Of a stretch of 64,000 nucleotides of DNA, positions 28,864 through 50,038 are shown piece by piece. Positions within the stretch are counted from its first letter, which is position 1; each line of letters opens with the position of its first letter. The stretch lies in NCBI GenBank assembly GCA_002189035.1, contig NEEC01000018.1, positions 1,736,001-1,800,000 of the forward strand, in the 5' to 3' direction. The stretch comes from Utricularia gibba (taxonomy: Eukaryota > Streptophyta > Magnoliopsida > Lamiales > Lentibulariaceae). Under the pieces are notes generated by a model that did no database searches, had not been told where the DNA came from, and saw only the letters and a list, made by a program, of their open reading frames with translations. A program made the translations under genes and the position numbers.

Positions 28864-31800
28864 ATGTCTGATAAGGAAAGAATAATTTTCAGAAAATCGA
28901 ACCTTGGTATGTGGTAGTCGTAATTGGACTTTCCGCTATGATATTTCGTTATGTTTGATGGTGTTAACTTTTCGTGATCGTAATTGGTTATTTATCCAGG
29001 CCGAACTTCTGTTGCACCGAGAGATGACGGTTTGTTCAAGGTGCCAAAGGAAAGAGTTGTATCCATGGCAGCATCTCTGGCTGAAGATGAGGCAAGTGCC
29101 GTTTCAGGAGTGGATGAAGTGGAGAATGGGTCTGCGAAAGGACAAGAGATTCGCGCTGACAGGCGATACCGCGGGAGCACTTCATTCGAGGGATCAAGTC
29201 CAGGTATACGTTTTAGCTGCTACCTTTGAATAGTAATTCATACATTCTTTTTCATAAGAGTGGTATATTGCCATTACACATTGTGTTTACATTGCTTTCT
29301 TTTTTCTGTTACGTTGGTAGCGATTCTCACTTTTTATTGACTTATTTTTCAGCTAGTACTTTAACAAAAGAGGTGAAAGTGGGCGGACTTCGCTCCGAGG
29401 TATGTTTACCTGTACAAGTTTTATTTTATGCTCTATCCATACTTGTTTTAGGATAGTATGCTGTTTTACTTTATGGTGAACATCGTGATGCTTTTTTTTT
29501 AAAGGTTTTGATTGCGTCTTCTAGAAGATCAAGAATCCAAACCCCTGGTTCAGATGATTTTGATGGTGATCGATCCTACAAAAGCTCTGGTAAATCTGCA
29601 AGAGATGGTTATGAATCCTATCGTGAACGGAGGACGCCAAGAGCGTCTGAGTATGATCAGAACAAGGAGCTTGAGGGAGACTATGGAAGAAAGAGAACTA
29701 AGCATGATAGGAATGTTGCAACACCTGGCAAGTCCTTTTTTTCTCATTTTATCAATACCGATCTATCCTTCTTCACTTTCTGCTTCATTTTGAAAAATTT
29801 ATGGTTATATTAATAAATTGTCGATTCTCTTAAAAAATTCATGTCATTGACAGCGAGATCCGATTGGGATGATGGACGATGGGAATGGAAAGATACCCCA
29901 CATCGAGATAGCCCAAGTTCTGGGAGTCGCCACCATCAGCATTTCCGATCTCCTATGCTTGCAGGGAACTCCCCTGATGCACGGCTCGTGTCTCCATGGT
30001 TGGGTGGGCAGACACCTAGTTCTTATGGTATCGTTCATGCCTTTTTTTCCTATAGCATCCTTAATTTTTTTCTCTTGGTGCTTATCTAATTTATATTTAT
30101 GTGAAGGTTCTGCATCACCTTGGAGCAGGAGTGCTCCTCTCCCCCTCCAATTCGTGCATCTGGATCCTCTTCAAGGTCTGCGAGTTCCCACTATAGTAAT
30201 AGGCCAAGCCAAGTTAAATTCACTTCAGATAAAGTGCATTCATCCGAGGTACCAAGCTCACTGCTTCGTTTACTAGTTTTAATATATTCTCGAACATTTT
30301 CCCTCAGTCATTTGAGGATGAATTTTTGAAGGTTACACCTTTTACCTATCGTTTTTTGTTTGTTCAAGGATGAAGAATTATCTCAAAGACAGGAATACGG
30401 GATTTCAGAAAGGATGATTTCAGAGATAGACTATATTTCTGATCGTTCTTGGTAAGTTCCACGTAAGGTTGACTTCGTCATCTATGTGTATTATAGATGA
30501 GCATTATTTCATAAACAGCATTTTAATATGATATATTTTAACCAGCATTCATCCTGCAGGTATCTTCAAGAGGAAGGTGGCGCTATGAATGATGCGGACA
30601 GTTCATCTTTTTTCCTTGGTGATGAGGCATCATTTCAGAAGAAAGAGGCTGAGTTGGCGAAAAAGCTGGTATGCGTTTTTCTTAATGCCAATTGACTACT
30701 GATTGTGTGGTTTTTCTCGATCATGCTCTACTTTTTACAGGAATACCACCTCTACCAGATTTTGTTTTATAGGATGTAGATTCATCGCACTTTTCTTTTT
30801 CTATCTCAAACTTGGTTTTTCCTGATGATCAACTGCACTCTTTCATAGTATATTCCTGGGAACATGCAGTAGCAGTCTGTTGTCTTATATACTGTAGTCA
30901 AGCAATTGTTCTTTGTGATTCATGTTGGGCTGCTGTCTAGGCATCCTTTTCAATCCCAATTACTTCTTAATTCATTTTTCCAATTCAAAATATAATTTCA
31001 ACCACTGTATCTACCCCTAGGTGCGAAGGGATGGAACCAAAATGACGCTTGCACAAAGCAAAAAGCTATCCCAGCTCACAGCTGACAATGCACAGTGGGA
31101 AGACAGACAACTACTGAGATCGGGAGCAGTACGGGGGACTGAGGTGCAGACTGAGTTTGATGATGAGGAGGAACGAAAAGTTATCCTTCTTGTACATGGT
31201 AATTCACTAGCATTTTGCCTTATACATAATGCCCGTTTTTAAGAAGGAGCTTTAGCCTTTACTTCTCATTTTTTCTTTTGACAGATACAAAGCCACCATT
31301 TCTTGATGGAAGGATAGTCTTCACCAAACAAGCTGAGCCTGTAACACCAATAAAAGATCCCACATCAGATATGGCCATAATATCTCGAAATGGATCCCGC
31401 CTTGTCAGGGAAATACGTGAGAAACAGAGCATGAATAAATCGAGAAAAAGATTCTGGGAGCTTGCTGGTTCACAAATGGGTGAAATTCTTGGAGTTCAAA
31501 AGACTGCAGACCAGGTGTGCAAAAAATGATGTGCTGTTTTTCTCAGTTAATGACAGTGTCCTGAAATTTTGTATGTTTCTTGGTTGGTTGCTAGATTGAT
31601 GCAGATACTGCTGTAGTGGGCGATCAAGGAGAAGTTGATTATAAAGAAGGTGGAAAATTTAGACAGCACATGGAAAAAGTTGAACCAGTCAGTGAATTTG
31701 CTAAATCGCGGACAATAGCAGAGCAGAGGCAATATCTGCCCATTTTCTCAGTCCGAGAAGAGTTGCTTCAAGTTAGGACCACTTCAGTTTCCTGTTGAAT

Positions 31801-47490: not shown

Positions 47491-50038
47491 ATGCTGGTCA
47501 GCAAACAGGCGTCCGCGTTGAGGGAGGATCAGGCTTCTCTTGGATCGGATCAGACTACATTGTCTGCTCCTTCGTCGTCGTCGTTTTTGTCGTGGATTCC
47601 ACTGAGATCGGTTCTATTTATAATTTCTTCGTCTTCCCTGCCGGTTTCACCTGATCGGTTAGTTATTCATTGGCTATAATTTGTTTTTTAATTTTTCCCT
47701 TAAGATTTTGCACTGCCTTGGTATGGAGGTTTATAGGGGTTGTTTGAATTAGTGGTTTTGTCTGGAGGATTTGCACCATCATTACTGATTCATGGATGGC
47801 GACTTTGGGAAATTTGTTCTTCTCTTAAGATTGCTTCAAGGAGACCATCGTTCTTGCTTTTTGAGTTATTCTAGTGAAAAACCCTTCTTTTCGATCTAAA
47901 GTGCGATCACAATTAAATTCCGACGATGTAGGTGTCTCATTATATTGTATTGCAGTGTAAGCCTTAAATCACCATGGCCTAGAAGGGGAAGTAAGCATTC
48001 ACTTCTGGCAAAACAGTGGAGGGAGCTTTTTGACGTGGATGGGAAGTTTTCTGATGATGGAGCCAAGTTTCTAAAGAAAATTCGAACCGGGGTATTTACA
48101 TTATTTATGGTCATTAAGTTGTATAGATGTAACATGCACACCCTGGTCCAAACTCTAGTTGTAAAGCAACCCTTGTAACAGTGCAGGACCTGCATACTCT
48201 AGATCTGTTGACTTAGTTTGTTTGTGTAATTTGACGCATGATTTTTTGACCCACCCAAAGCCACAAATTTTGTTTTAGCTGTTGAACTGATGCAGGGTAT
48301 TGAGCCTAGCTTGAGGTCCGAGGCTTGGCCTTTTCTTCTGGGAATGTAAGCTCTTCTTGAAAGGATCCCAAAAACTCTTCATCTGTGTGTTCTATATATG
48401 CCTCCTAAAATTAGATTATCAATCTGATGAGCTGTCTTTTTCCTGCGAACATGCTGGAGAAATTATTTATTTATAATGTGCTGTGCTAGATCTTTTTGTT
48501 TTTTTTGTATAAACCCAAATTTTTCTAGTTCTAATACATTTTTATTTTCATATCCTGCATTGCAGGTATGATGTGAAGAGTACAGAAAAAGAAAGACTCG
48601 CTATTAGAGCACAAAAGCGGTATTTTTTTTTATTTTTTTGTAAAACCATGGTCCTATTTGTTGTAGATGAGATGTTTGTGGAATTATCACACATTATGCA
48701 TCATTCGGTGTGTTTCTGTCTACATTTTTTAAGAGTTTTTATTTGTATGATGTTCAAACACATATGGATTTATATCTTTCCTTGCTACAGAAAAGAATAT
48801 TTTGTGTTATGGAGACAGTGTCGACGGATTTCTGGATGTGATTATGGGAGTCCAAGACAAAAAGAGATACCGTTAAGCAATGGCACTTATGTTAATGGGG
48901 ATGACTGTCGAGCGTTCGATCTTCTTAACTTGGATGTGGTTTCTAGTGCTAGGCATTTTGTTCCAACAGACGTCACCAGCTTGTCAGGGGAGCTTATTTA
49001 TAAAGATGGGTCAAGTGCGTACTCGTGTTCTTCCTGGGAGACATCGGAGGCGACAGGAAACGATGGTGCTATTTTTGGTGACATTGTTTCTGAAGCTGAA
49101 ACAGTGTCCTTGGATTCTGACTCATCTGATGATCCTGATTACGAAAAATCATGTGGTAGTTCAGTAATGAAAACAGAGGAGAATCGCACTTATGAGCCTT
49201 TTGAAGCTACTTCTCCAGGGAAGTTAGATGGACTATGTCGACCTGCAGGCTTCACTACATGGCAGAAAATCATACGCCTCGATGCCACACGAATTCATAA
49301 AGAATGGATAATCCATTCCCCATCCCAAGCTTCTGTATCATTAGAAAAGGCTCAACATTTAGCTGAAACTGTGGGATTGAAGGATTATGATCATCTTGAG
49401 CCTCCCAGTATTTATCATGCAGCTCGTCTAGTAGCTATTCTTGAAGCATATGCTCTGTATGATCCCGAGATTGGCTACTGTCAAGGTATGAACGAATTGC
49501 TGTCTCCAATTATTTCAGTGATTGAGGAGGATGATGTCGCCTTCTGGTGCTTCGTCGGTTTCATGCGCAAAGCTCGGCACAACTTTCGACTAGATGAAGT
49601 TGGGATCAAAAGGCAGCTCAGCATTGTGTCAAAGATAATCAAGTGCAAGGATACGCGTCTCTACAACCACCTGCAGAAGCTCCAGGCCGAAGACTGCTTC
49701 TTCGTATACCGAATGGTGGTGGTTCTGTTCCGGCGAGAGCTAAGTTTGGAGCAGACCCTCTGCCTCTGGGAGGTTCTGTGGGCCGATCAAGCAGCTATTC
49801 GAGCTGGTGTAGTCAACTCCCGGCGGGGAAGGATCAGAATGAGAGCTCCCCAACAGAAGATCTCCTGCTTTATGCCATAGCAGCGTGTGTTCTACAGAGG
49901 AGGAAGATGATCATCGACAGTCACTGCAGCATGGATGAAATCATGAAGGAGTGCAACGACATGGCCGGAAACCTCAACGTGTGGAAGCTCCTTGACGACG
50001 CTCATGATCTGGTAGTCACTCTTAACGGGAAGATTTAG
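47491..50038 (+). CDS. TBC-domain RabGAP (one frame break near the 3' end)
   Basis: GTPase-activating protein for Rab GTPases in vesicle traffic. Exons 47491-47657, 47956-48091, 48296-48345, 48566-48619, 48791-50038; about 551 aa once one missing base is allowed for. The N-terminus is Ser-rich (WIPLRSVLFIISSSS), then LKSPWPRRGSKHSLLAKQW. The TBC domain starts at GIEPSLRSEAWPFLLGMYD and is interrupted by a roughly 120-residue acidic insertion. It continues with the catalytic Arg block IIRLDATRIH and the Gln finger block YDPEIGYCQGMNELLSP, then EDDVAFWCFVGFM and LCLWEVLWAD. At 49848-49851 a C run is one base short: RMRAP should continue into TEDLLLYAIAACVLQ but falls out of frame. The true end is VVTLNGKI. 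Confidence 0.93.

Follow-up and report, generated by a model that had tools for sequence, protein, structure and literature searches.

One-base frame breaks in four conserved genes of a Utricularia gibba assembly very probably reflect homopolymer under-calling

Background

Consensus sequences built from PacBio continuous long reads and polished with Quiver are known to retain single-base homopolymer losses (PMC4832174, PMC4888979), which in sign and context are like the frame breaks described here. Of the indels left after Quiver in the G+C-rich Streptomyces case, nearly all were found in G or C homopolymers (PMC4832174). In a PacBio assembly of the A+T-rich Plasmodium, in contrast, the errors are mainly in homopolymers longer than 14 bases and in TA repeats (PMC5964635), unlike the present case. 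The Quiver cases concerned bacterial genomes verified with Illumina reads, whereas the evidence used here comes from the frames of proteins, from 5S repeats and from contigs that are redundant. Another relevant precedent is Kastor (PMC12007338), which addresses errors that fragment genes in long-read assemblies: indel errors make apparent pseudogenes that are recognised through curated relatives, as was done in this study; that work dealt with small genomes, and ours deals with the 100-Mb nuclear genome of a plant.

For Utricularia gibba, a long-read assembly of 101 Mb with a contig N50 of 3.4 Mb has been described (PMC6265445), an assembly size of 100.689 Mb has been given (PMC6258962), and a PacBio map comprises CHR1-CHR4 (PMC10663240). 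The assembly surveyed here consists of 100,091,633 bases in 516 contigs, and PacBio is probably the platform behind it. Our starting point was the window, by which we mean the whole stretch of 64,000 nucleotides that was analysed.

Results and discussion

Frame breaks in the window

Frame translations confirm that six frame breaks are present in four genes of the window, namely a PRP16-like, an ERMP1-like, an F-box/MYND and a TBC gene, and that all six share one sign, being one base short, as an earlier sequence-only reading had proposed. Its statements that the breaks are flanked by conserved protein and are unaccompanied by nonsense mutations are also borne out: domains and frames match the family before and after the breaks in PRP16, TBC and F-box/MYND, and no in-frame stop was seen in the coding parts of the broken pieces. 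The placement of the breaks is weaker than that reading stated. It had assigned every break to a run of G or C; three are pinned to C4 runs and a fourth, at 42121, is narrowed to about 15 bases with a G3 run among them, but the site at 30123 and the one in the F-box gene are bounded only.

The PRP16-like DEAH splicing helicase gene (28861..34527, plus strand, start approximate) was recognised from its domains and a 718-bit match to human PRP16, and carries three breaks. The piece read through from 32937 aligns to the human protein (5yzg_Z) in one 718-bit stretch spanning both 33594 and 33700; taken frame by frame, Helicase_C lies before 33594, HA2_N between 33594 and 33700, and HA2_C and OB_NTP_bind after 33700. 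The frames and this alignment place the second and third breaks, each one base short, in C4 runs at 33591..33594 and 33697..33700. The first break, also one base short, is bounded (30122..30146) and not pinned. It falls within a single exon, where the upstream intron phase fits the preceding frame and the later protein is in another frame, a change that was judged by eye without an orthologue. Its bounds enclose a GG pair as well as a C5 run (30141-30145), and the C5 run fits equally well.

PRP16 is present as a single copy in the assembly. It is a spliceosomal helicase required for splicing, and a plant could hardly survive three real frameshifts in its only copy. At about 1.6 kb, the last exon of PRP16 is a long one. 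The 3' coding ends of PRP16 (33500-34527) and TBC (49560-50038) look higher in G+C than the coding sequence that precedes them, so that G/C runs, and hence breaks, fall there.

On the minus strand, the ERMP1-like endoplasmic reticulum metallopeptidase gene (39001..44399, 3' end approximate; ERMP1_C domain at 39227-39637) has its break, one base short, at 42115..42135. Here, two frames overlap in one exon, each matching the splice phase at its own end, which narrows the break to a stretch of about 15 bases with a G3 run in it (C3 on the plus strand, at 42121-42123). A search of the assembly with the tested exon yielded no second copy. The neighbouring F-box/MYND gene (44925..46120, minus strand), identified by domain matches to a Sel1 repeat and a MYND finger, has intact paralogues in the assembly. 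Its break, again one base short, lies between the Sel1 frame and the MYND frame and is bounded only (45213..45300); the bounds contain G6 (45252-45257) and G5 (45263-45267), both on the plus strand. Judging from the intact paralogues, which do not align cleanly across this gap, the break may lie just past the 6-base run.

The TBC (Rab GAP) gene (47492..50038, plus strand, start approximate) has a RabGAP-TBC domain and an intact paralogue, 77% identical, on contig C1. Its break, one base short, is in a C4 run at 49848..49851, with the RabGAP-TBC frame upstream and the frame of the conserved C-terminus downstream. A second paralogue, on contig C328, is likewise a base short at that codon pair and has a C run of five where the window gene has four. 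In the intact C1 paralogue, the equivalent C run is interrupted by synonymous codons.

One way to explain such frame changes would be that splice junctions have been mis-read as breaks. Frame changes caused by introns do occur elsewhere in the window, as in a trehalose-phosphate synthase and a hAT-like gene; these, and the frame changes in a GH3 gene, were considered as breaks and attributed to introns, and no break was found in PP2C or in the adaptin-like frame. At the window sites that were measured, however, the two frames overlap or are separated by at most 29 bases, too little for an ordinary spliceosomal intron to fit, and at 30123 an exon encloses the break. We therefore give mis-read introns next to no credence.

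Genome-wide survey

Six breaks of one sign among six give p = 0.03 by themselves, so the weight of the one-sided sign rests on genome-wide data. Over all genes, with stop-bearing and intron-ambiguous cases set aside, breaks one base short outnumber those of the other sign by 40:1 (p = 4e-11). The 40 comprise the six in the window, 20 in GRAS genes and 14 from searches with HSP70, BAHD acyltransferase, UDP-glycosyltransferase, TBC and F-box.

The GRAS search returned 70 matches in the assembly, and the genes are mostly single-exon. Frameshift-aware alignment to a profile of intact members gave 20 breaks that are one base short and one of another class, a count that excludes three intron-bearing genes and two loci that match poorly or bear stops. 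The sole exception, at locus L046, resolves into separate private gaps when redundant copies are compared. Overall, an apparent frame break of the one-base type is present in roughly one in three of the GRAS loci that were examined. In the other five families, 14 breaks are one base short and none is of another class; these are adjacent fragments with no space for an intron. A TBC copy with stops and one BAHD case in which an intron would fit were set aside, and the breaks in HSP70, BAHD and UDP-glycosyltransferase genes were called from match coordinates only. P450 fragments were also tried as a source of breaks and gave no usable ones, introns lying at the joints.

Real decay of the four genes into pseudogenes, for example after genome duplication, would be expected to leave nonsense mutations, indels of both signs and relaxed selection downstream of each break. 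The intact relatives of TBC and F-box/MYND in the genome mean that loss of one copy could be tolerable, and true-looking pseudogenes do occur: a TBC copy (L093, C413:863320-863820) and a GRAS copy (L051) carry stops and mixed lesions, in contrast to the clean one-base breaks elsewhere. However, the sign in the GRAS genes is 20:1, and only one in-frame stop was seen in the 41.7 kb of coding sequence that the GRAS analysis covered. Selection gives the same picture. Against the C328 paralogue, the dN/dS of the TBC gene is 0.092 upstream of the break and 0.047 downstream, where dS is near saturation; in an analysis covering 11 GRAS genes, the pairs that yield a value agree on both sides of the break, at about 0.07-0.33. 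Ratios as low downstream as upstream indicate that the downstream protein stayed under selection. With PRP16 and the tested ERMP1-like exon also lacking a second copy, we regard decay as very improbable.

The breaks also track G/C runs. In the GRAS genes, the longest G/C run near a break averages 3.95 bases. At randomly chosen places in those genes the average is 2.46 (sd 0.18), and none of 5000 random draws reached 3.95; A/T runs near the breaks are at chance level. Counting against the homopolymer reading, some GRAS breaks are at runs of only two or three.

Several GRAS breaks cluster near the conserved motif R-P-G-G-P-P, whose codons form long C or G runs. Such recurrence at one motif, together with the two paralogous TBC genes that are out of frame at one codon pair, could be taken as a sign that the printed run lengths are right and that the protein is rescued by programmed ribosomal frameshifting or by slippage of the transcript. 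The recurrent spots, however, are no more than the places at which conserved Pro or Gly codons form long C or G runs. A conserved slippery site would be expected for programmed frameshifting, yet the GRAS break positions are scattered and follow G/C runs. The intact TBC paralogue does without the run, and the other breaks are spread over unrelated genes, with three in PRP16. We put frameshifting on a par with mis-read introns, at the very bottom of the scale.

Non-coding control

Non-coding sequence shows the same spectrum. In a conserved segment of 5S rRNA, compared in 58 copies, a C run is shortened in 15 and lengthened in one. Among 20 aligned 5S units, the share of G/C runs below the modal length is 0.5, 0.7, 4, 17.5, 26 and 32% for lengths 1-6, where part of the losses at length 1 are members of small block deletions. 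In all, 58 G/C runs in these units are shorter than the mode and none is longer. A/T runs of 3-5 are shortened in 2 of about 214 cases and lengthened in one, and the difference from G/C runs of at least 3 is significant (Fisher p = 2e-5). The C4 of U6 is retained at three of three loci, as expected if loss at length 4 is well below half. The 5S rDNA (C222, C223, C224, C227, C229) also falls into two variant classes at one position, ACCCCCTGGG and ACCCCTTGGG, which are mostly in separate array blocks.

A shortening-only spectrum this strong in non-coding arrays would also suit a lineage-wide mutational bias that really deletes bases from G/C runs, the more so as the Utricularia gibba genome has been described as reduced by deletions (PMC10663240). 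Under such a bias, however, selection would purge the losses, and yet the breaks sit in constrained genes.

Redundant contigs

One GRAS locus (L029/L046/L052) was assembled three times, on C422, at the end of C414 and at the start of C416. Differences between haplotypes are expected to be mostly substitutions; these three copies have no substitutions and differ by private gaps only, and the C422 copy has an intact frame of 497 residues. Counting against a purely homopolymer origin, L046 has one 5-base and one 2-base gap away from runs. In a second redundant pair (L020/L021, on C316 and C412), there is one substitution and there are ten gaps, and all ten gaps fall in C316, a contig of 38 kb. 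Another two redundant pairs show no difference across 1.7-1.8 kb and are uninformative. The identical pair C241/C304 carries one HSP70 break on both contigs, which counts against random error and therefore points to a shared consensus or a systematic error.

For the private gaps between substitution-free copies of one locus to be real, the mutations would need to arise within one plant. The alternative raised by the sequence-only reading, a lineage with a real deletion bias, thus cannot alone explain either these gaps or the loss of frame under strong selection, and we consider it less probable still than decay. Equally improbable is a composite in which the printed run lengths are real, G/C runs contract in one direction in nuclear DNA, and slippage in transcription or translation preserves function.

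The same locus is seen on several contigs in four cases (L029/L046/L052; L020/L021; L094/L095; L096/L097), often on a small contig or at a contig end, and copy counts taken from the assembly may be inflated by such redundancy. Many contigs, C1, C2, C222, C224, C409, C505 and C507 among them, have sizes that are exact multiples of 2,500, with values of 8,500,000, 6,192,500, 25,000, 35,000, 2,492,500, 3,452,500 and 642,500, which suggests that contigs were cut at fixed windows in assembly or release.

Conclusions

Systematic homopolymer under-calling, as the sequence-only reading had supposed, is supported by the one-sided sign, the dependence on G/C-run length, the 5S signature, the private gaps, the signs of selection and the PRP16 breaks. 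As expected of an artefact, single-base losses far outnumber gains (40:1 in genes and 58:0 in 5S G/C runs), the loss rate climbs with run length both in 5S and in the GRAS breaks at long G/C runs, and redundant copies differ by indels and not by substitutions. On evidence that is strong though indirect, we are highly confident that the six breaks are residual homopolymer-deletion consensus errors of the assembly. The proposed course is that a single-molecule long-read assembly of Utricularia gibba, probably PacBio, would keep residual consensus errors, that the reads or the consensus caller would drop a base at homopolymers of G or C with a frequency that grows with run length, and that a base missed in coding sequence would mimic a one-base deletion frameshift. 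Accurate reads would then differ from the printed sequence at the six sites.

If the frame breaks are uncorrected sequencing errors, an intact state of the four genes in the living plant is most likely. In practice, the one-base artefact matters only to those who work with these gene models. Where numbers of genes, supposed gene losses or truncated protein models are taken from this assembly, short reads should be consulted before genome reduction is inferred from them.
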